Both the position numbers and the translations under genes were made by a program. A stretch of DNA of 34,814 nucleotides from contig JAFUPK010000012.1 of the NCBI GenBank assembly GCA_017481265.1, positions 1-34,814 of the forward strand, written 5' to 3'. Origin of the DNA: Clostridia bacterium (GTDB taxonomy: Bacteria > Bacillota > Clostridia > Oscillospirales > CAG-272). Shown here piece after piece: positions 15,738-25,192 of this stretch (position 1 is the stretch's first letter; each line of letters begins with the position of its first letter). Under the pieces are notes generated by a model. The model saw nothing but the letters and a program-made list of their open reading frames with translations, ran no database searches and was not told the origin of the DNA.

Positions 15738-15812
<75 letters not shown>

Positions 15813-15820
15813 GAAACATG

Positions 15821-15855
15821 AAAGACACACAGAAATGTGTGTCTTTTTTGCGTTT
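15821..15855 (+). terminator. tRNA-Cys terminator
   Basis: A stem AAAGACACAC/GTGTGTCTTT (15821-15850) is followed by further T residues, 12 nt after the tRNA. It would lie on the inserted element rather than on the original chromosome. Confidence 0.85.
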
Positions 15856-15923
15856 ATACGGTTGTTTCTTATGGAAATTCGTTGAGTATGAAACTTTTCC
15901 GACTTTGCTTTATAAAGTTCTCA

Positions 15924-15951
15924 AAACAAAATTGGTTTCCAAATTGGTTTC
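15924..15951. repeat. Integrase arm-type repeat, left copy
   Basis: Contains two tandem copies of AAATTGGTTTC. The same 28 bases recur at 23343-23370 at the other end of the element, in the same orientation. The position just inside both ends is that expected of binding sites for an integrase N-terminal arm domain. Confidence 0.7.
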
Positions 15952-15975
15952 TAAATTTGGGAAGGGAATCATGCT

Positions 15976-17136
15976 ATGACAAGTACAAGAAGGCACAACG
16001 GAGAAGGCTCCGTTTGCCGTGTGTCGGAGAATAAGTGGATAGCCAAAATCAGCCTTGGTACAGGCCCCGACGGCAAAACTATCATGAAGCAGTTCTCAGG
16101 TAAGACCGAGACCATAGTGAAAAAGAAGCTGCGGGAATTTAAGAAAAGCCACGACTTCACCGAAAAGCACAAGCCCTGCAGCGACACTGTGGAAGCATAC
16201 TTCTCTAAGTGGCTTAGAGAGTATCAGTATAACAAGCTGAAGCCCGTGAGCTTCGACCGCCTTGAAAGCACGGTGAGAAACCACATTACCCCGAACCTCG
16301 GAAAGCTAAAGATGGACAAGGTGACAAGAGACCACGTTCAGTCTCTCATAAATCAGCTTTACAATAAGAAGGGCCTCTCGTATTCCACAGTCAAGAAGGT
16401 CTACGTCGCACTGAACTCATGCTTTAAGCATGCTATGATAGCTGATGTGATATTGAGAAACCCTTGCCTCGGTGTGGTGCTTCCTTCACAGAGTGAACGT
16501 ACCAGGCAGGTGACGTCGCTGTCGGCTGAAGAAGTGGAAATATTGAAGCGCGAGATCGTCAAGACCACCTCCACCGGCTCCCAGGTGTATCTCTACGGTC
16601 AGGCTTACCTGCTAATACTCAACACCGGACTCAGAATGGGCGAGGCTCTGTCGCTCCGTTGGGAGGACGTGGACTTTGAAAATAGGCTCATCACGGTGAA
16701 CAAGAACAGCGTCATGGCAAAGAAACGCGACGATGATGGGAATACAGTGGGCGGGTACGAGTTCAAGACTCAGAACAGCACTAAGACCTCAAGCGGTATG
16801 AGAACGATCCCAATGAACCGCTCAGCGGAAGATGCTCTGCTGAAGATGAAGAAGAGTAGCGACAGCACCTTTGTGATAGCGAACAAGAACGGAAAGCAGG
16901 TGCTTCCCGCTAACTTTGAGCGCTCCTTCCGTTCCATACTTGAGAACGCGGGCATCAAGAGTGATTGCACGATCCACACCCTGAGACATACCTTTGCCAG
17001 CCTGCTCTTTGCTAAGGGAGTTGACGTAAAGATCGTCAGCCGCCTCCTCGGCCACTCAACGGTGAAGGTAACATATGATATATACGTGCATCTGTTTGAT
17101 AAGGATGTGAGTATGGTGACAATGGTGTTGGATTGA
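15976..17136 (+). CDS. int: Tyrosine recombinase/integrase
   Basis: A 386-residue site-specific recombinase that would integrate and excise the element at tRNA-Cys. The N-terminal ~55 residues (RRHNGEGSVCR...) resemble the AP2-like arm-binding domain. Next comes a SAM-like core-binding domain (about 65-165) and the catalytic domain. Catalytic residues are all present: Arg near 220 in TGLRMGEAL, HTLRH near 334-338, LLGHS near 358-362 and Tyr near 370 in TYDIYVH. ATG 15976 follows a GGGAAGGGA stretch. It reads away from the tRNA, as in most tRNA-borne integrative elements. The enzyme appears intact, so mobility is possible if an excisionase is supplied. Confidence 0.95.
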   Translation: MTSTRRHNGEGSVCRVSENKWIAKISLGTGPDGKTIMKQFSGKTETIVKKKLREFKKSHDFTEKHKPCSDTVEAYFSKWLREYQYNKLKPVSFDRLESTVRNHITPNLGKLKMDKVTRDHVQSLINQLYNKKGLSYSTVKKVYVALNSCFKHAMIADVILRNPCLGVVLPSQSERTRQVTSLSAEEVEILKREIVKTTSTGSQVYLYGQAYLLILNTGLRMGEALSLRWEDVDFENRLITVNKNSVMAKKRDDDGNTVGGYEFKTQNSTKTSSGMRTIPMNRSAEDALLKMKKSSDSTFVIANKNGKQVLPANFERSFRSILENAGIKSDCTIHTLRHTFASLLFAKGVDVKIVSRLLGHSTVKVTYDIYVHLFDKDVSMVTMVLD

Positions 17137-17192
17137 GGTACCACACTTCAGTACTCATTGCAAACTTTCCGCTAATTCCTACTTATCCCCCA

Positions 17193-17221
17193 TTCGCAAA
17201 CACACCGTTCCGCGATATAAT
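17193..17221 (+). promoter_or_regulatory. Promoter of the DUF6809 gene
   Basis: TTCGCA (17193-17198) and TATAAT (17216-17221) are separated by 17 bases, followed by AAAGGA and the start at 17255. Confidence 0.55.
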
Positions 17222-17254
17222 TATCCTATAACCAACAAAGAAAGGACAATTATC

Positions 17255-17521
17255 ATGAGAAAATCTATACTTGAAGAGCTTTATTACGGTAACGTCTGCC
17301 CGTGCACAGACTGCAGGAACACCAGCGATGAAACAACTGAGCTTATGAGTTACCTTGCTGCACATCATAAGACTCTCTCGGATGGACTCACGGACAAGCA
17401 GAAGGAGACTTTAGTAAAATTCGATGACTGTCAGTGCGAGCTTATTGATATCAATGAACGTGAGTTGTTCATATATGCGTTCAAGCTTGGAATGCGTTTT
17501 GCTATAGAAACGCTAGCGTGA
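17255..17521 (+). CDS. DUF6809 family protein
   Basis: An 88-residue soluble protein of unknown function. The N-terminal ILEELYYGNVCP and the later FDDCQCELIDINERELFIYAFKLG region are what I recognise as DUF6809, a family frequent on clostridial mobile elements. ATG 17255 has AAAGGA about 8 nt upstream. The DUF1810 gene starts 9 nt after its stop, so the two form a small operon. No catalytic residues are evident. Confidence 0.75.
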   Translation: MRKSILEELYYGNVCPCTDCRNTSDETTELMSYLAAHHKTLSDGLTDKQKETLVKFDDCQCELIDINERELFIYAFKLGMRFAIETLA

Positions 17522-17530
17522 GGTAATATC

Positions 17531-18055
17531 ATGGACATCAATTCACTCGAGCGCTTTGTTCAGGCGCAGGCGCTTATGTATCATGTAGCTCTTGAAGAAA
17601 TCAAATCAGCTAAAAAACAGTCTCATTGGATGTGGTATATGTTTCCTCAGCTCCGTGGACTTGGCACGAGCTTCATGGCTCACACGTATGGCATTTCGGA
17701 TCTCGATGAAGCTACACGCTATCTTGAACATCCGGTGTTGTCTGGGAGACTCCGGGAGCTTTGTGGTGAGTTATTAAAACACAAGGGCAGGAATGTTGTT
17801 GATATTTTTGGAGATACAGATTCAATGAAGCTAAGATCTTCGATGACTCTGTTCTCACTCACAAGTGAAGACTATACCATATTTGACGAGGTTCTTGAAG
17901 CATTCTTTGACGGTGAGATGGATGAGATGACTGTAGATTTAATAAACTGCACCGAACATTTAGCGCGCTCTATGAAAGATATTAAAAACAACAAACTTCT
18001 AGATGAAGATGAAATTTATAATGAGATAATCAGAAATCTAGAACATCTGGAATAA
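17531..18055 (+). CDS. DUF1810 family protein
   Basis: A 174-residue soluble protein. The first ~140 residues match DUF1810: LERFVQAQ near the start, SHWMWYMFPQLRGLG and YLEHPVLSGRLRELC. The family is widespread and sometimes encoded with macro-domain or other ADP-ribose-linked proteins, but its activity is not known to me. An extra acidic C-terminal tail of ~30 residues (KNNKLLDEDEIYNEI...) is present. Cotranscribed with the DUF6809 gene; the start is chosen at ATG 17531, with AGGTAATATC as weak ribosome binding site. Confidence 0.85.
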   Translation: MDINSLERFVQAQALMYHVALEEIKSAKKQSHWMWYMFPQLRGLGTSFMAHTYGISDLDEATRYLEHPVLSGRLRELCGELLKHKGRNVVDIFGDTDSMKLRSSMTLFSLTSEDYTIFDEVLEAFFDGEMDEMTVDLINCTEHLARSMKDIKNNKLLDEDEIYNEIIRNLEHLE

Positions 18056-18068
18056 CACTTGTACTTGA

Positions 18069-18230
18069 TTCTATAAAGGTTCAAGTCTCACTACCAAGAA
18101 ATCGCTAGAGTGCAAGGCTATTATCCAGAAACACTCCAAGGATTTCGGTGGCAGTCTTGATGATCCGGATGTTATTAAGCTTTGTGGGTGTAGTAGAAAT
18201 AGCTATTATAAGTATAAGAGAGAAGTGTAA
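18069..18230 (+). pseudogene. C-terminal remnant of a serine recombinase
   Basis: A frame without a usable start reads ...SSLTTKKSLECKAIIQKH, then KDFGGSLDDPDVIKLCG and SRNSYYKYKREV before TAA. This is the characteristic tail of resolvase-type serine recombinases of Clostridia, whose catalytic N-terminus (~150 residues) is absent. The upstream side is closed by an in-frame TGA at 18066. It marks a deletion or an older insertion inside the element. Confidence 0.65.
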
Positions 18231-18277
18231 GGGAGATGAATCAAAAAAATATCGGCAACTACAATACAGATTTAATC

Positions 18278-18484
18278 CTATTTATCTTCGCTTGTAGTAA
18301 CTTCAATGGTTTTGGAAAGTTCTATGTAACAATCCTTCTCTTTAAAGCCTCTACGCAAATAATCTCGTCCTCCATCTACAGAACAAGCGCCACATTTACA
18401 CTGAACATAATCATGGCGATAGGTAGATTCTATAACATCACCACACAACTTGCACTGGATAGCATTTTTTATGATTTTAACCAT
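18278..18484 (-). CDS. Small zinc-ribbon-like protein (DUF7695-like)
   Basis: A 68-residue protein with CKLCGDVIES and CKCGACSVDGG, i.e. two cysteine pairs suited to one zinc ion, and a conserved DYLRRGF segment. I recall this pattern as DUF7695; function unknown. GAGG lies 6 nt before ATG 18484. It is the last gene of the restriction-modification operon, 9 nt after the metallopeptidase stop. Confidence 0.75.
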   Translation of the reverse strand: MVKIIKNAIQCKLCGDVIESTYRHDYVQCKCGACSVDGGRDYLRRGFKEKDCYIELSKTIEVTTSEDK

Positions 18485-18493
18485 GTACTTACC

Positions 18494-19213
18494 TCATTCA
18501 ATAAAAGAATTGTTTTTCTCAAGAAGTCGTTTTCGTTCTTCCCAGTCTGGCATAAACATAGCGAGCTGTTGATAAAACTTTTTGGAATGATTAGGCTGAA
18601 GGAAATGTGTAAATTCATGAACAACAACATATTCAATGCAAGATATAGGAGCTTCTACCAAAGCATAATTGAATGTCAAAACATAACGTTTGGGTTGACA
18701 ACTACCCCAGCGAGAAATCATATTTCTGTATCGAATAGTTGGATATGTGACCCCGTATTTTTGAAATTTGGGATAAATAGAATCACATAAAGATTGAATC
18801 GTATCTTTGCAAATACTCATTAACCATCTATCTATCAGTTTCTTTTTCAGAGTGAAATCACTTGAGTTCTTGACAGTCAATGTAATATATGACTCATCAT
18901 ATTCCACCTTGTTTCCCTTACCCTCAATAACCGTTAATCTTCTGTCATGGCCCAGTACTCTGAAAGTTTCACCATCCACATATTGCTTGGGTTTCGGAAC
19001 ATATTTCGCAAGCTCTTCATAATGAGCAAGTGCTTTTAAAATATACTCTGATTTAGACTCAATAAATTCATCAATTATTTCATCAGACACATGAGGATTG
19101 GCAGAAATAAAGATTGTTCTATCTGCTTTAATTCTTAAGTTGATATTTTTAACATCTTTTCTTTGCAGGTCATATTCAATTGCCTTGCCATTCAAAACTA
19201 TTTCTTTGATCAT
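18494..19213 (-). CDS. YgjP-type (SprT-like) zinc metallopeptidase
   Basis: A 239-residue protein with the zincin motif HEFTH near residue 199 and the third-ligand region LQPNHSKKFY shortly after, as in the YgjP/DUF45 family. The preceding RWGSCQPKRYVLTFNYAL segment is also family-typical. It is cytosolic with no signal peptide. ATG 19213 has GGAG 6 nt upstream, and the ATG overlaps the hsdR remnant's TGA (ATGA). YgjP-like genes often accompany type I restriction systems, but what they cleave there is not established. Confidence 0.88.
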   Translation of the reverse strand: MIKEIVLNGKAIEYDLQRKDVKNINLRIKADRTIFISANPHVSDEIIDEFIESKSEYILKALAHYEELAKYVPKPKQYVDGETFRVLGHDRRLTVIEGKGNKVEYDESYITLTVKNSSDFTLKKKLIDRWLMSICKDTIQSLCDSIYPKFQKYGVTYPTIRYRNMISRWGSCQPKRYVLTFNYALVEAPISCIEYVVVHEFTHFLQPNHSKKFYQQLAMFMPDWEERKRLLEKNNSFIE

Positions 19214-19839
19214 TTGAATCTCCTAAGGGCAACTGTTATTACATTCTCAATGATCTTATCAATAGAATCAAAGTCAACTTGAATGCCTTTTTCTTTTTCA
19301 AGTTCATAGAACATATCATCGATATCTTGTGCAATCTTATTGTGAATATCTTTATTGGTCTGCCAATCAACCATATTGTGTTCATCTACAATTTCGGTAA
19401 TTTGAATTGAAATGTCGGATATAACATCAATGTTGGCACTAATGTCCATTACATCATCCAAAATTGCAGTAATAACACCGTAAAATGCCTGTGCATGCAC
19501 ATTACCCTTGATCTTTTCGGGATAGGTAATATTCGTTGTGCCTTTGCGATAGTCTTCCATAATGGACTTCATCTTGGCAAGGTATTCAGCTTCTGTGATG
19601 ACTCTGTTCTTATATTCTTCAAGAGCATCTTTGATTCTTTTAGAGAAAGCATCGTAGTAAGCGGGATTTTCATCTCTGTTTACTTTAATACTCTTTGTCA
19701 TATGCGAAACAATTGCATCAGCCTTTGATCTCATTGTTCCGAGCTCGTGAAGCTCTTTTTCCAATTCATCGCGGTCAAGAATATCTACAGGATTGGTAAT
19801 TTGTTTGATACCAGCAACAGACATATGTGTATCAAGCAA
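19210..19839 (-). pseudogene. hsdR: hsdR remnant: C-terminal domain of type I restriction subunit R
   Basis: The frame encodes about 205 residues beginning SVAGIKQITNPVDILDRDEL and continuing with the helical C-terminal domain of type I R subunits, including AFYGVITAILDD and ending VALRRFK. Full HsdR proteins have about 1,000 residues; the PD-(D/E)xK nuclease and the helicase motor are missing. The only ATG-like starts (TTG 19839, ATG 19824) have no ribosome binding site, and a TAG lies just upstream. The downstream overlap with the metallopeptidase start is preserved, so roughly 2.4 kb was probably lost from an ordinary operon. A surviving standalone protein is possible but cannot restrict DNA. 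Confidence 0.75.
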
Positions 19840-19933
19840 ATAAAACTTCTAAACATCTATTACTTCTCCTTTTTCGTCTTCTCCACCGGTTTGTCAAAAT
19901 CACTCTGATAGAACTGATTAAATATCATCAACC

Positions 19934-19960
19934 GAACTATCCGGAAATTCCGGATAGTTC
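19934..19960. repeat. Perfect 13-bp palindrome after the DinD-like gene
   Basis: Arms GAACTATCCGGAA and TTCCGGATAGTTC have a single-base loop. On the plus strand AATTTTT follows; on the minus strand, where the genes lie, no T-run follows. It may be a terminator, an RNA-processing stem or a recombination scar. A 22-codon frame (M-I-F-N-Q-F-Y...) lies between it and the hsdR remnant and is unassigned. Confidence 0.6.
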
Positions 19961-20798
19961 AATTTTTCTCAGCCAGTTTTTTCTTTTCTTGCTCGCGCTC
20001 AATCTGCTTGATGCTCTTTTCGGGTGTAGGGAGGTCCTCAGGCATTGTGCCGCCAAGTTCTTTGATGGTCTGGCGGACTTTTGCACCGACTTCATAATGA
20101 GTCCTGTTGGCTTCGGCTTTGCCTTGAACATTATCCCTACGAAGCTTTTCCTCTGTCTGCGTAGCACGGAAGAGGTTAGCAGCAAGTTCCGTACTTCCCA
20201 TATGGTCAAGGATTTTCTGGCTCTTTTTCAGACCTTTGTGCTGATGGATGGCTCTCATATCCATTCCACCGTACAAACCTTTATATCCCCAATTCTGAAA
20301 AACTGCATATTCTACGGGTTCGGTAATACCAGCCTGCTTTGCGGCTTCCGCAAGAGCCTTGTTATGAGCTACTATTTCATTACGGATTGCTAAACGCTTT
20401 TGTTCTTCAGTAAGAACATCATAGTTTTCAATGATTTCTTGCTGTCTTGTCTTAACTGCAAAATAGGTTTGTCCAATAGCAATGACTTCTTTGCGAGGAT
20501 CGCCGTTTTGCATAATTAAGTAGCACGCGTATCGTGACAACTGAACATCATCGATAATTCTTGTACCACCATTAGGCATGGGCGATGATTTGTTGACGTC
20601 AACGAAATGTTCCTCTACTAATATTCCACTGTTTTCACAAGCAATTTTAGCTTTGTCAACAACTTTAAGGAAATTTCTCCAATCGGTGTATTCCAATACA
20701 TGCTGCAGTTCACGAGCATTCCAGTATTCTGTTCCGTCCTCGAGGATATGCTTTATATTTTCAAAAATACTTTCATCTTTGTCAAAAAAGAAAAACAT
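19959..20798 (-). CDS. dinD: DinD-like DNA-damage-inducible protein
   Basis: A 279-residue protein matching the DinD family. Residues ~15-100 form a BRO-N/antirepressor-like domain (EYWNARELQHVLEYTDWRNF, then ARYACYLIMQNGDPRK-type segment). The C-terminal half has GMDMRAIHQHKGL and KILDHMGSTELAANLF followed by a basic coiled tail. E. coli DinD (PcsA) is SOS-induced and inhibits RecA filament activity; genes of this family often sit inside type I restriction operons. AAAGGAG is 6 nt before ATG 20798; it begins 12 nt after the hsdM stop. The function in this setting is inferred. Confidence 0.87.
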   Translation of the reverse strand: MFFFFDKDESIFENIKHILEDGTEYWNARELQHVLEYTDWRNFLKVVDKAKIACENSGILVEEHFVDVNKSSPMPNGGTRIIDDVQLSRYACYLIMQNGDPRKEVIAIGQTYFAVKTRQQEIIENYDVLTEEQKRLAIRNEIVAHNKALAEAAKQAGITEPVEYAVFQNWGYKGLYGGMDMRAIHQHKGLKKSQKILDHMGSTELAANLFRATQTEEKLRRDNVQGKAEANRTHYEVGAKVRQTIKELGGTMPEDLPTPEKSIKQIEREQEKKKLAEKN

Positions 20799-20810
20799 TT
20801 ATAGCTCCTT

Positions 20811-22367
20811 TCAAAGTCCCAATTCTTCCATATACTTCTTCATCTGCGCCTGCACCTCGGCAAGCTCCGCCTCAATATTAGCAATGTTCTGTTTCACCTC
20901 ATCGATGTCAATGAGTTCTTCCTCTTCGAAGGTGTCCACGTAGCGAGGAATGTTGAGATTGTAGTCGTTTTCTGCGATCTCCTCAAGCGTAGCAACGTGA
21001 CTAAACTTCGGCTCGTCCTCGTAGTGAATATCGGTCTTATACTGAACGTAGGTATCTACGATTTTTTTCACATCACACTCGCGCAGGATATTCTGATTCT
21101 TGCCCTTTTCATATCTACCTTCGCCGCTTGCATCGATAAAGAGCACCTTATTGTTCGTCCCACGATCTTTGCGGAAGATAAGAATACAAGCAGGAATACC
21201 TGCACCATAGAAAAGGTTAGCGGGAAGACCGATAACAGCATCAAGGAAGTTGAAATTCTCGATAATAGTACGACGAATCTTTCCTTCTCCAGCACCACGG
21301 AAAAGTACGCCATGAGGAAGGATGATGCCCATACGTCCGGTAGTGTCGTCCAAACTATGAAGCATATGCATTACGAATGCGTAGTCGCCCTTTGATGTGG
21401 GGGGAATTCCCCAGTCGAAGCGTCTGAAAGGATCAAGCTCCGCAGACATCTTTTCCTTGGGCTTTCCTTTTTCATCCACTGCGCCGGAAAGGAATCCACT
21501 GTCCCACTTATCAAGTGAGAACGGAGGATTCGCACAGATACACTGGAACTTCATCAACTTATCATCCTTGATGTTTCCGGGGTTAGAGAGGGTGTCGCCT
21601 TGCCAAATGGTAGCATCATCTACATTGTGGAGGAACATATTCATACGACAGAGAGCCCATGTCTGCATATTCTGCTCCTGGCCGTAAAGTGCAACCTTTC
21701 GGCTTTCTACCTGCTTATACGCCTTGAGAAGGAGGCCTCCGCTTCCGCATGTAGCGTCATAAATACGGTCATTTTCCTTTGGAGCAATCAGTCTTGCTAC
21801 CAGCTCAGACACTTTGCTCGGGGTATAGAACTCGCCGCCTTTCTTTCCTGCGTCGGAGGCGAAGTTAGCAATCATATACTCGTAAGCATCGCCGATGATG
21901 TCAGCATTATCAAGCTGATCGGGAGAGAGGTCAAGATCTTTGAAGTCCTCAAGGAGATTTTTGAGGATTGCATTCTTTTCCTTTACTTCGCCAAAATCAA
22001 CGGTGGAGTTAAAGTCAATGGCGCGGAATACGTTGTGAAGCTTTGCACTGTTGTTTTTTTCGATATTAGCAAGGGCAATGTTAATCTTTTCACCAATAGC
22101 AGTATCGTTTCTGTTTTCATAGAGGTAATCGAAAGTGGAGGTTTTGTCCATAACAAAACGCTCGCGACTCATAGCACGGGCAATACGCTCTTCGTTTCCG
22201 TTGTACTGCTCACTGTACTTTTTTCTGGTGTATGCATATACGTCGCTCAGGTATTTTACAAAGAGCATAGAGAGGATGTAGTCTTTATATCGAGAACTGT
22301 CTATCTTTCCACGGAAACTATCGCATGCGTTCCAAAGTACCTTTTCAATATTCTGTTTAGTCGTCAT
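20811..22367 (-). CDS. hsdM: Type I restriction-modification methyltransferase subunit
   Basis: A 518-residue DNA adenine N6-methyltransferase. The helical HsdM N-terminal domain (residues ~5-150) is complete. Motif I DATCGSGGLLLKAY lies near residue 203 and catalytic NPPF near 279. The C-terminus is coiled (IANIEAELAEVQAQMKKY), where HsdM contacts HsdS. Length is normal and no key residue is missing. ATG 22367 overlaps the HsdS stop (ATGA). With HsdS it should form an active methylase that modifies host DNA. Confidence 0.95.
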   Translation of the reverse strand: MTTKQNIEKVLWNACDSFRGKIDSSRYKDYILSMLFVKYLSDVYAYTRKKYSEQYNGNEERIARAMSRERFVMDKTSTFDYLYENRNDTAIGEKINIALANIEKNNSAKLHNVFRAIDFNSTVDFGEVKEKNAILKNLLEDFKDLDLSPDQLDNADIIGDAYEYMIANFASDAGKKGGEFYTPSKVSELVARLIAPKENDRIYDATCGSGGLLLKAYKQVESRKVALYGQEQNMQTWALCRMNMFLHNVDDATIWQGDTLSNPGNIKDDKLMKFQCICANPPFSLDKWDSGFLSGAVDEKGKPKEKMSAELDPFRRFDWGIPPTSKGDYAFVMHMLHSLDDTTGRMGIILPHGVLFRGAGEGKIRRTIIENFNFLDAVIGLPANLFYGAGIPACILIFRKDRGTNNKVLFIDASGEGRYEKGKNQNILRECDVKKIVDTYVQYKTDIHYEDEPKFSHVATLEEIAENDYNLNIPRYVDTFEEEELIDIDEVKQNIANIEAELAEVQAQMKKYMEELGL

Positions 22368-22966
22368 TTGATATTACCTCTTTTCATGTTATCGTAGATT
22401 TGATTTAAAAGTAGTGTGTTATAGACCTTCTTTTCTACTGCTAACTTATTAAGAAGCTCTTGTTCTCGTTCTGCGAGTCTAAGAAGATTTCCCATAATAT
22501 TTTGCTCGTTCAATGGCAGAAGGGTAATTGGAAGTGATGCGATCAACCCAGAACTTATTGTGCCGAATGCGGTACTTCCACTGCTGTTCTGCATCATTGT
22601 GATTCTATTTTTATCACGCTTCAAAGACCAATATATATATTCGGGAGATGCAAACCGTTTATCAACACGAATAATTACAAAATGTGAAGGAACAACTATA
22701 CCACACAGTTCTGGACGTTCTATCAAAACCGCAGTGTACGGGGCACTCAATCTGACGAGGATATCTCCCATTTGAGTCAAATAATCTTCTTTAAGTTCTG
22801 AAGATAATTTGTAAGACTCAATATAAGATTCATTTATATATCCTTCGTTTGAGATGCATTTCAAATTTAACAATCGATAATTATATGTACATGAAGAAGA
22901 TGCTTCTTTCTTTTTTCGTGCGGTAACAAGACCTGTTCTCACGGACGCTATTTCACCTATAGTCAT
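22364..22966 (-). CDS. hsdS: Half-size type I specificity subunit
   Basis: A 200-residue HsdS with a single target-recognition domain, about half the usual ~400. The TRD occupies residues ~1-150, with the typical GDILVRLSAPYTAVLI, SPEYIYWSLK and GSTAFGTISSGLIASLPI elements. One coiled spacer with ILPLNEQ-like LLPLNEQNIMGNLLRLAEREQELLNK follows. ATG 22966 is chosen because GGAGG lies 5 nt upstream; the TTG at 23011 is not needed. Half-size HsdS proteins can dimerise and then recognise a palindromic bipartite site. The gene heads the operon. Confidence 0.87.
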   Translation of the reverse strand: MTIGEIASVRTGLVTARKKKEASSSCTYNYRLLNLKCISNEGYINESYIESYKLSSELKEDYLTQMGDILVRLSAPYTAVLIERPELCGIVVPSHFVIIRVDKRFASPEYIYWSLKRDKNRITMMQNSSGSTAFGTISSGLIASLPITLLPLNEQNIMGNLLRLAEREQELLNKLAVEKKVYNTLLLNQIYDNMKRGNIK

Positions 22967-23045
22967 ACTCTCCTCCGAATATTTTGTCATGGAAGTTTTG
23001 TGATGGTTCAACTTATACCAATAACCTATATTTCCACTTTCTTAT

Positions 23046-23074
23046 ATGATACCATGTTTAATCCTTTTTGTCAA
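23046..23074 (-). promoter_or_regulatory. Promoter of the hsdS-hsdM operon
   Basis: On the minus strand TTGACA (23074-23069) and TATCAT (23051-23046) are 17 bases apart. An inverted repeat GTGACA/TGTCAC with a 7-bp spacer at 23107-23125 lies about 33 bases upstream of the -35 and could bind a regulator. Confidence 0.75.
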
Positions 23075-23125
23075 GGTCTAAAAAAGTTTTTTGTCATGAT
23101 AAATTTGTGACAGCGATGATGTCAC

Positions 23126-23428
23126 TCGTATTTGGATAGATTTTTGTATAGTGTTATAATCAATGTTTATACAAACTTATCATGTATATCGCCCTCAAAA
23201 TTCCGACGCCAACGCCTTATAGTAAAACTATCTAATGCACTTGAACAAAAAACATTCCCAACATCAATCGCAAACATCTTCCGAACTTCTCCCAAAGCCT
23301 ATGTACGAACGACTCCAAACACGATATAATTCATCAAAAATGAAACAAAATTGGTTTCCAAATTGGTTTCCTTTGAGCTTTGTGTCGAGTAAGAAGTGTG
23401 AAAAAGCCCAATAAAATAAGGGGTAATT
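23126..23428. other. Gene-free right end of the integrative element
   Basis: I see no credible gene. A 65-codon frame here has no ribosome binding site and no family features. The stretch holds the second arm-type repeat (23343-23370) and ends at the attachment repeat. Confidence 0.6.
23343..23370. repeat. Integrase arm-type repeat, right copy
   Basis: Identical over 28 bases to 15924-15951, with two tandem AAATTGGTTTC units. It lies 58 bp inside the right attachment repeat. Confidence 0.7.
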
Positions 23429-23501
<73 letters not shown>

Positions 23502-23509
23502 AGAATAAA

Positions 23510-23544
23510 AAATCGCTCATCGAAATGGGCGATTTTTGTTTTTA
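23510..23544 (+). terminator. Hairpin terminator downstream of the right att site
   Basis: A 10-bp stem (23511-23520/23525-23534) with a CGAA loop is followed by T-rich sequence. It is repeated almost exactly at 23749-23783 together with the preceding CGCCTTTAAGAATAA. Probably the original chromosomal terminator of tRNA-Cys. Confidence 0.75.
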
Positions 23545-23900
23545 AAGATAAAGTGACAAGCAGAATCGAACGGGTCGATAGGAGGGGAGTCCCATTGGAC
23601 GAGCCTCCGTCTGATTGGCGCCTTTGTAGACAACAAAAGGACTTCCGAAGAAGTCCTTTTGTTGTCTACAAAGCTTTGATGAGATGCAAGAATCGAACTG
23701 GTTTCGATAGCCGCTTGCGGCGTCTGACCCACGCCTTTAAGAATAAGAAAATCGCTCATCGAAATGGGCGATTTTTGGTTTTTGAGATCTAATGACAGGC
23801 AAAAGTCGAACTGCTTCGAGAGGAGTGGTGTTCCACCGCACAGCGTTCCGTCCGACCTGCGCCTTGTAAACAAAAAAGTCGGGCGCATGACACCCAACAA
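23545..23900. repeat. Cluster of three tRNA-3'-like units with strong hairpins
   Basis: Three diverged units start at about 23545, 23675 and 23790. Each contains an AATCGAAC/AGTCGAAC box (like the reverse complement of a T-arm), a variable middle, and a GCGCCTT or ACGCCTT end like the tRNA-Cys 3' end. The first unit ends in a perfect 24-bp stem with CGAA loop (23622-23645/23650-23673). The second ends in a copy of the att-site terminator (23749-23783). No protein gene is present. Confidence 0.55.
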
Positions 23901-24013
23901 CACTACTATTATACCATACTTTCACCCGGTTTGTCAAGATATCTGTTCGTCATAGTGCCGAAATTCTCCCTATTGAACAAAAATAAAATATAAACTTTGT
24001 ACAAAATTACATC

Positions 24014-24042
24014 TTGCAAAAACTAAAAATGTGTGGTACAAT
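24014..24042 (+). promoter_or_regulatory. Sigma-A promoter of the large ncRNA candidate
   Basis: TTGCAA (24014-24019) and TACAAT (24037-24042) are separated by 17 bases; transcription should begin near 24049. Confidence 0.7.
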
Positions 24043-24048
24043 ATAGAC

Positions 24049-24555
24049 ACAAGAAAGGAAGGTACACTCCAATGAACAAGTAACCTTCAAGGCTCCGAAA
24101 GCAAACCTCTACGGAACAGCGGATCCTGACTTAAAGCAAAGAGATAAGTAGGAAGTCAAAGATACGTAAAGAATCAGCCTGAGTGCTGTTGCAGCATGAA
24201 TGAGGACAGACCAATGGGCAATTAAAACTCATACAAGCAAGTTCCATGGTAGAAAGTTAGAAGTCGTTTAAAAGTTTCATATTCCCTGTTGATTATAGTA
24301 TAGATAAACGTCAGGAGCTGTAAACGGAGCCAAAATAAGAACTCAAGCTTTTTCGAAGCATAACACCAACGCAAATAGGGATCCTGCATACAGGATGTGG
24401 TTTAAAGTGCAAGTTGACGGTGACTGATCGAAAAGGCAATTTAAGAAAGAGAGGTAAACAAAAAGATGTTAGATATCAAGAGTGAACAGAAATGACCCTT
24501 GCCTGCAACAAAACTGTGTGAAGAAACAGTGCAGCCAAGGGTCATTTCATTTTTT
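24049..24555 (+). ncRNA. Large (~500 nt) structured non-coding RNA candidate
   Basis: A transcription unit of about 507 nt with a good promoter, a compound terminator and no open frame of useful length on either strand. Local stems are visible: TGCTG/CAGCA around 24190, ATCCTG/CAGGAT with loop CATA near 24380-24395, and a 12-bp closing stem AAATGACCCTTG/CAAGGGTCATTT (24490-24501/24536-24547) enclosing CTGC/GCAG and ACTGT/ACAGT pairs. It is purine-rich with many short A-rich linkers, the look of an ornate folded RNA. Its size and place beside tRNA-related and mobile sequences recall ROOL- or GOLLD-class RNAs, but I cannot confirm a family. It is not tmRNA, RNase P RNA, 6S RNA or a group II intron by any motif I can see. 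Confidence 0.6.
24490..24555 (+). terminator. Compound terminator of the ncRNA unit
   Basis: A 12-bp perfect stem with an internal branched hairpin is followed by CATTTTTT. A second short hairpin CGCC-GAGA-GGCG with TTTTTTT follows at 24568-24586 as a back-up terminator. Confidence 0.8.
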
Positions 24556-24687
24556 AGGGGAAGCTTGCGCCGAGAGGCGTTTTTTTGTTTTTGTGGGGAT
24601 CTGTGATGCCTGATTTAACTGCAAAGAAGCTGTCACATTAAGTGTCAAACAAAAAACCACCGTTTACGAGTTCTTGTACTTGTCTAT

Positions 24688-25002
24688 CTACAAAAGCAAA
24701 TTGTATAACCGGAGCTGTTCTGCCTTCGGCTTTGTGAGAAAAAGCTCATAGCAAGAAATCGGAATGTCATCGGAATTGTCGTGAGATCCATCCAATTTCT
24801 CAAACAGCTTTGACAGAGGAATATTCAAAGCTGTAGCAATACGCTCGATACTTTCAAGTGTTGCGTTCTTTTCTCCTCGTTCAAGCTGACCGATATAGGT
24901 TGGATGACATGAAGAAAGCTCCGCCAGCTTTTCTTGGCTCAAGCCCTTACTTGTTCTATAGTTTCTGATTCGCTGTCCGACAGACTTTGCAATATTGCTC
25001 AT
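24688..25002 (-). CDS. XRE-family transcriptional regulator
   Basis: A 104-residue DNA-binding protein. The Cro/C1-type helix-turn-helix spans residues ~5-65, with GQRIRNYRTSKGLSQEKLAEL, recognition region HPTYIGQLERGEKN and IERIATALNIPLSKLF. The last ~35 residues (SCYELFLTKPKAEQLRLYNLLL) are a short C-terminal extension. ATG 25002 has an AGGATGG ribosome binding site about 9 nt upstream; a frame extended to 25155 runs through the operator and is unlikely. It is divergent from the SLOG-like gene and probably represses itself and perhaps that gene. Confidence 0.88.
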   Translation of the reverse strand: MSNIAKSVGQRIRNYRTSKGLSQEKLAELSSCHPTYIGQLERGEKNATLESIERIATALNIPLSKLFEKLDGSHDNSDDIPISCYELFLTKPKAEQLRLYNLLL

Positions 25003-25016
25003 AAAATATCCATCCT

Positions 25017-25042
25017 TTATAGACTGTGCATATAGTCTATAA
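25017..25042. promoter_or_regulatory. Probable operator of the XRE regulator
   Basis: A perfect inverted repeat TTATAGACT/AGTCTATAA with an 8-bp spacer lies 15 bp upstream of the regulator's start codon. A partly matching half site, ACTATAAATATCAT, occurs near 25097-25112, closer to the divergent gene. Confidence 0.6.
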
Positions 25043-25192
25043 ATATTATGCCGAATATTCCACATACTATTGATATTATTGCAGTCGGGTGGTATACTAT
25101 AAATATCATCGTTGGAAATTCTGTGCTCATAGTAGCTTATGTGCACCGAAATCACCTAAAAAATAAGGCTAAGCTTATGGAGGGAATCGGTA

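Follow-up and report, generated by a model that had tools for sequence, protein, structure and literature searches.

A patchily distributed RNA family of Clostridia with tiny, probably translated reading frames near both ends

The window, the whole stretch of 34,814 nucleotides from a Clostridia bacterium that was analyzed, holds a probable tRNA-Cys-linked island with integrase and type I restriction-modification genes at 15738-23499, and just beyond it, from about 23868 onward, a predicted RNA unit with two promoters facing away from each other (Table 1). Behind the second tRNA-Cys, at 23490-23860, we noted repeated blocks in which the 13-bp hairpin AAATCGCTCATCGAAATGGGCGATTTTT occurs twice, together with tRNA-like remnants; these blocks are perhaps old attachment-site copies. 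A preliminary description of the locus had placed the RNA beside a tRNA-linked mobile locus. The island is indeed nearby in the window, but the link is a local one, as 23 of 31 loci have no tRNA gene within the 2-3.5 kb that were fetched. ARAGORN finds tRNA genes in the other eight, the window's own among them, and the association with tRNA thus looks incidental.

Table 1. Positions of predicted features in the window
Feature	Position	Strand	Basis or remark
tRNA-Cys	15738-15809
Phage-type integrase	15976-17136
Type I restriction C-terminal-like ORF	19210-19839
Bro-N protein	19959-20798
HsdM	20811-22367
HsdS-like	22364-23011
Second tRNA-Cys	23426-23499
Terminator hairpin and T-run of tiny divergent transcript	23868-23898	-	9-bp stem, then TTTTTTGTTT
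Divergent promoter TTGACA-18-TATAAT	23908-23937	-	promoter scan; 12/12 matches
Region between the promoters, conserved, with possible sites for a regulator	23938-24013	.	copy consensus
Forward promoter TTGCAA-17-TACAAT, TG before -10	24014-24042	+	promoter scan
RNA	24049-24556	+	predicted, from start site through T-run of terminator
Very strong Shine-Dalgarno (SD) of 5' minigene	24057-24063	+	dG -17.1 against an assumed 16S tail
Three-codon minigene ATG AAC AAG TAA (MNK-stop)	24072-24083	+	identical in paralogue G000:C10
Second three-codon minigene ATG GGC AAT TAA (MGN-stop)	24214-24225	+	weaker, ordinary SD, dG -9.5; absent from paralogue
3' structured arm	24347-24437	+	P1: GCTTTTTCGA 24347-24356 with TCGAAAAGGC 24428-24437
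Inner hairpin of 3' arm, ATCCTG-CATA-CAGGAT	24381-24396	+
Second SD GAAAGAGAGG	24445-24454	+	dG -14.6 in window (16S tail assumed)
Nine-codon ORF MLDIKSEQK-stop	24466-24495	+	stop inside terminator stem
Intrinsic terminator	24489-24556	+	stem with compensatory changes
Backup terminator	24567-24587	+	scan
HTH_3-type regulator	24688-25155	-	just downstream of RNA

The forward promoter of the preliminary description was recovered by the promoter scan at 24014-24042, and its stems and two terminators by folding (stem at about 24489-24556) and by scanning (second terminator at 24567-24580). The predicted fold of the RNA, which is about 507 nt long, is more stable than those of dinucleotide shuffles (z = -2.61, with one of 100 shuffles equally good), and the 5' SD of the window copy is partly paired in it. 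The statement that neither strand holds a usable frame was half right, because the frames are tiny, yet look real: long frames are absent, the sole ORF of at least 50 aa that overlaps the RNA being a minus-strand one at 24222-24389 with 55 aa, but three tiny ORFs on the plus strand, MNK at 24072, MGN at 24214 and MLDIKSEQK at 24466, had been missed.

The existence of homologues, both in the same genome and elsewhere, shows that the region is not a chance arrangement. A second copy in the genome (G000:C10:32714-33164) shows hardly any differences over the stretch that starts at the divergent hairpin and reaches some 85 nt into the RNA; it aligns poorly in the middle and realigns over the 3' arm, the ORF and both terminators. 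The collection of homologues by BLASTN that had been proposed returned relatives in 33 genomes of the 196 searched, the source genome among them, and most match the two ends of the query, at approximately 383-508 (3') and at 1-46 (5'); none of the 11 listed congeners gave a match by BLASTN, and the distribution is patchy even inside the genus. An exact pattern for the 3' part yielded 86 stretches in a collection of 84,980 species genomes, under titles that name Oscillospiraceae, Clostridia, Pseudoflavonifractor and Faecousia and in many cases a ruminant gut. Note that much of the 3' ORF is fixed by this pattern, which biases the ORF conservation among the copies found with it, and that the copies found by covariance model form a separate set.

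The fetched loci contain 113 unique copies. Under strict filters, which lose weak matches, the covariance model R1, built for the 3' module, matched 72 of the 396 genomes in the order, about 67 of which are left when terminator-only matches are removed; 12 of 292 genomes at class level, namely the source genome, nine strong matches (best E 8.5e-14 or better) and two weak ones; and two of 299 at phylum level, the source genome and G582. The match in G582 is terminator-only, and those in G127, G266, G268, G293 and G437 likewise consist of a terminator-like hairpin that lacks both SD and ORF. Of 80 model matches 54 were listed, the others being copies with higher scores or echoes of the same hairpin on the opposite strand, and 48 of the 54 were kept for a count of 161 copies after six terminator-only matches (L189-L194, from five order genomes and G582) had been removed by eye. 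Copies with a start-to-ORF distance above 600 were left out of the counts given below for the middle, the divergent promoter, the promoter-anchored minigenes, the 3' ORF, the inter-promoter region and the second terminator. In five inspected class-level loci, and in a copy from Vescimonas fastidiosa, both a 5' minigene of two or three codons and the 3' ORF are kept. One genome (G480) gave seven model matches, five of which lie inside about 3 kb (L143:5972-8982), where the 3' modules are mostly separated by apparently intergenic sequence.

At the gathering thresholds of Rfam 15 the whole window yielded two tRNAs alone and nothing in the RNA. The Infernal search suggested in the preliminary description gave no match to ROOL, GOLLD, HEARO, OLE or raiA in 23900-24750 even at E 10, the matches obtained up to that value being three unrelated ones below threshold. 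Neither ROOL nor GOLLD was matched in 20 homologous loci at E up to 1; above threshold these contained tRNAs and one Gut-1 RNA, and their sub-threshold matches, some on or near the 3'-module hairpin, were mostly to miRNA families (best E 0.028 besides a second Gut-1 match) and were taken as chance. The Gut-1 RNA (Rfam RF01706) is located at L011:2071-2145, close to one homologue.

Phage records contained no match to the RNA, and plasmids a single one, in the 0.86-Mb replicon of V. fastidiosa between a TetR-family gene and spoVAC, at a site where no gene is listed. Viral scans returned zero and four stretches, and of the four only one has a model match, a partial one of 36 positions at a contig end; the other three look like chance matches. 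The partial match (L212:6161-6194) covers the first 36 positions of the 3'-module model, that is, the SD and ATGTTAGATATCA, looks to sit inside a phage tape-measure gene and may reflect chance or a chimeric assembly. With no phage match, one plasmid match and no convincing phage copy, we rejected the view of the RNA as a phage or plasmid element.

These searches bear on the preliminary proposal of a ROOL-like RNA or a new large RNA class. ROOL and GOLLD, ornate RNAs that form homo-oligomeric cages and are encoded in phages or prophages, often close to tRNA islands, are large orphan RNAs as well, and the size of the present RNA, the tRNA gene near it in the window and the many homologues with ruminant-gut titles would fit a member or relative of these classes; cow rumen is also the source of ROOL env-120 (PMC12286853). 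Such a kinship is nevertheless scarcely credible, given the lack of any covariance-model match within the limits stated above, a tRNA or phage setting that is inconsistent among the copies, and best-conserved parts that, unlike those of ROOL and GOLLD, are translation-initiation sites. The first half of the proposal hence lost its support, and the second half gained it from a conserved family with covarying helices and no Rfam match to the RNA. The family is named in no source searched, no description of it was recognized among the literature matches listed, and a literature search with the peptide and a DNA string found no match. It is apparently undescribed, and supplements on candidate RNAs (e.g. 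PMC8040213, PMC11109978) could hold an overlapping unnamed motif.

Both promoter and 5' minigene were located in 95 of the 113 copies, the remaining 18 having no 5' end under the promoter rule used. The minigene consists of an SD, an ATG, two variable codons and a stop (ATG-N-N-stop). Among 84 distinct promoter-anchored minigenes 77 have three codons, six have two and one has eleven, and 83 thus show the SD, ATG, one or two sense codons and stop of a lambda bar-type minigene; the frame controls gave 2% (+1) and 0% (+2), and ATGs elsewhere in these RNAs 10.7% (n=375). Three-codon minigenes end in TAA (64), TGA (11) or TAG (2), and the tripeptides vary freely, with 37 different dipeptides encoded after Met. 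When searched by motif only, 119 of 135 minigene matches had three codons and nine had two; duplicate sequences were removed from these counts as from those of the 3' ORF. By this motif 15 of the 113 copies have no 5' minigene, and 26 have two to four matches, some of which belong to an adjacent tandem copy; tandem minigenes were seen in L013, L022, L026, L029 and L173.

The 5' SD of the window copy begins some 8 nt after the predicted start of transcription and is thus a strong SD near a 5' end, as in leaders of the STAB-SD type. Calculated against an assumed 16S tail, which a pattern search with one mismatch located in none of 20 genomes, the median SD energy is -17.1 kcal/mol for the minigene (n=95) and -14.3 kcal/mol for the 3' ORF (n=113), against -9.1 kcal/mol for the first ATG of mechanically called ORFs of at least 250 aa (n=495) and -6.0 kcal/mol for random controls (n=495).

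The 3' ORF follows an equally regular layout, with the SD GAAAGAGAGG, a spacing of 5-13, a start, mostly 8-10 codons and a stop at the terminator stem. A script found it in 156 of 161 copies, including two mis-scored rows (L181, which reads an upstream ATG, and VNRNNPQL, L099 by its sequence, which reads an internal GTG), and copies from public contigs and from other genomes were only partly deduplicated against each other in these counts. Nine codons are found in 106 cases, ten in 38, eight in eight, and seven, five, eleven and twelve in one each, where many ten-codon ORFs open with ATGATG and either start is possible; the stops are TGA (97), TAA (54) and TAG (5). Where the usual ATG is lost (L012, L017, L032, L151, L165), an ATG or GTG is present one codon upstream, in frame. 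Off-pattern cases are the first copy in L027 and L183, which are shifted, and L181, which is without the usual stop and reads 15 codons.

These data bear on whether the RNA could be an mRNA for secreted or intracellular signal peptides, either MLDIKSEQK or formylated tripeptides. The nonapeptide is identical in 77 of 113 copies, but most of these came from the 86 stretches retrieved by the pattern that fixes much of its sequence. Diverged copies encode unrelated peptides (MIEPKSFGK, MSDPKETEE, MLEPNNFIG, MKTDFKSEQN) in an unchanged start-stop layout, and with the free variation of the minigene dipeptides a signal peptide is very improbable. At the nucleotide level the opening half of the 3' ORF, GATGTTAGATATCAAGA, is conserved beyond the need of a throw-away peptide, and may therefore overlap a motif for RNA or protein binding. 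A hairpin within GATGTTAGATATC was considered and discarded, as its variants, inspected by eye, fail to keep the pairing.

A fixed stop behind free codons, the in-frame replacement of lost starts, the SD spacing and the SD strength are together hard to explain without translation. The start-stop frames appear to be selected and the peptides, judging from their sequences, mostly not. The preliminary description had counted an open frame conserved by homologues against an RNA gene, and this point was borne out by half, as frames of three and about nine codons are kept but no protein is. The region is very probably a copy of a patchily distributed Clostridia RNA family with translated tiny ORFs.

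Compensatory changes, for which the preliminary description had proposed to look, were found in the terminator stem and in the 3' arm. In the terminator 12 of 16 predicted pairs changed on both sides among 52 sequences, and 45 of 111 copies, compared with one of 111 shuffled, have a second terminator no more than about 80 nt away. The P1 helix of the arm terminates about 9 nt ahead of the second SD. With the best pairing picked in each copy and shuffled controls handled identically, 57 of 109 copies reach a P1 score of at least 18 against three of 109 shuffled; four of the 113 copies, with no recognized SD or too little upstream sequence, were left out. A model of the arm (R2) matches the window at 24344-24454 (45.5 bits, E 3.4e-8) and 28 of 43 sources at E 0.1. 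Thirty copies chosen for containing the hairpin motif as well as P1 were aligned; in this alignment 88% of cells pair, double-sided changes occur in 26 cells compared with 7.7 in shuffles, and the covariation of 0.258 (shuffled 0.182) was reached by none of 500 shuffles. When the partner strand was slid, pairing fell to at most 58%, although a slide of -1 equalled the number of pairs with double changes (10). One of five measures, the count of further pair types, was no better than in shuffles (26 against 24.5; 151 of 500), and the middle helix of the arm pairs in merely 70% of cells.

The middle of the RNA is variable and cannot be aligned even between the two copies of the source genome. For this reason a consensus fold (alifold) of 35 whole type-A copies recovered little besides the terminator. 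The motif CACGGCGGTGTTACGC..ATATAGAT or a close variant is found in 35 of 91 middles, the window copy being without it, and could form a tight pseudoknot; two copies switch GCG/CGC to ACG/CGT in this pseudoknot-like motif. A trans-acting structured or antisense RNA, with the 3' arm, the 3' ORF sequence and the middle as effector and the minigenes as mere stabilizer, would make use of the covarying arm, the nucleotide-level conservation of GATGTTAGATATCAAGA and the pseudoknot-like motif, but a middle that differs beyond alignment within one genome speaks against it, and we regard it as rather unlikely.

An ORF that ends in a terminator also resembles leader-peptide attenuators, and the RNA might accordingly be a regulatory leader of downstream genes. 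Against this, the nearest downstream ORF is co-directional in just 29 of the 64 copies having one, and 45 of 111 copies have the second terminator. No neighbour recurs widely: in a survey with mechanically called ORFs, 242 ORFs flanking 79 copies fell into 179 clusters, the ten largest of which comprise at most nine loci each. In the absence of a regularly co-directional gene and a recurrent family we rejected the attenuator as an explanation, its probability being very small.

Since a lack of translation and a functional peptide seem equally unlikely, a stand-alone structured RNA with ribosome-docking sites is the best view of the locus. The arrangement of a divergent promoter, 5' minigene or minigenes, covarying arm and second ribosome binding site with an ORF of 7-10 codons supports, as far as sequence comparison goes, a stand-alone transcript. 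Taken as a whole, a regulatory RNA of this kind clamped by ribosomes at both ends is the explanation that we tentatively put forward, with confidence somewhat short of even. In the mechanism that we envisage, itself a slightly less secure possibility, ribosomes would go through repeated rounds of initiation and termination on the minigenes and so hold the RNA by its 5' end, and the 5' minigene would act as a self-renewing ribosome cap against 5'-3' decay by RNase J1. In this way the RNA could be long-lived although it has no long coding region. The 3' ribosome binding site, in the gap between the P1 arm and the terminator, would offer a second docking site, and the RNA may act in trans via its arm or its variable middle or, alternatively, occupy initiating ribosomes together with initiator tRNA whenever the divergent promoter is activated. 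With similar reserve, it may represent a new RNA class that has ribosome-docking sites as its working parts, is clamped and stabilized at both ends and senses or restrains translation.

To our knowledge the design of this minigene-bearing RNA is without precedent. RNAIII, SgrS and SR1 are dual-function regulatory RNAs with ORFs for functional peptides some tens of residues long; they share with the present family the combination of a regulatory RNA and a short ORF, but here the ORFs have three and about nine codons and the peptides vary. In Gram-positive bacteria, long untranslated RNA is shielded from 5' attack by RNase J1 where a strong SD or an initiating ribosome sits close to its 5' end, and in Bacillus a ribosome bound there blocks 5'-3' decay (PMC3997798). 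The STAB-SD, ermC, hbs and aprE leaders resemble our RNA in this protection of downstream RNA by a strong 5' SD (PMC3997798). Those leaders stabilize mRNAs, whereas here the SD is joined to a stop conserved after three codons in an orphan RNA. The two-codon ORFs of lambda bar and axe-txe are likewise mini-ORFs that act by being translated (PMC8012679, PMC8708949), that of axe-txe raising txe expression in cis, possibly via mRNA stabilization (PMC8708949). They belong to phage or to a protein-coding operon, in contrast to a stand-alone RNA without protein gene that usually has three codons, a 3' ORF and covarying structure.

Lambda bar, which codes for fMet-Ile and is toxic to E. coli deficient in Pth (PMC8012679), is the precedent for a further alternative. 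An abundant minigene RNA might throttle translation by sequestering initiating ribosomes, fMet-tRNA and, via peptidyl-tRNA drop-off, other tRNAs, so that translation slows upon induction of the promoter. Very strong SDs joined to ORFs of 2-3 codons, the tandem minigenes of some copies and the several genes per genome, as in G480, are in favour of this idea. One or two RNA genes would, however, require an abundance like that of rRNA, an informal look at codons 2-3 revealed no obvious choice of rare codons, and neither the covarying arm nor the 3' ORF would be needed. We regard such a throttle as rather unlikely. If the ribosome-clamped RNA is real, it would provide a natural system for asking whether initiation-termination cycles without a protein product serve as a regulatory or stabilizing device. 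Three-codon ORFs fall under the usual cut-offs of gene finding, yet are conserved here across several families of gut Clostridia, and RNAs without long frames may thus still be directed at ribosomes.

The divergent side of the locus is conserved as well. A divergent promoter followed by a terminator within 75 nt is present in 67 of 90 copies, as compared with 1.2 per shuffled set, and its -35 box is in most cases located 108-123 nt ahead of the forward start site, with outliers at 84-102 and 157. The 62 of 91 copies that share the common spacing class have the inter-promoter consensus AatTTCT.c.ttTT..AcAAAA...ttgt.aa.TTtT.a.Aa.TTgcc.ATTG.AAa, and the two copies of the source genome differ at two positions in this region. 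A likeness of the divergent hairpin (GTTGGGC/GCCCAAC) to the consensus of integron attC sites was dropped because many copies lack these sequences. In the window the divergent transcript, driven by a promoter of perfect consensus, would stop after about 35-40 nt and thus be an RNA of little more than a terminator, in a layout that is conserved.
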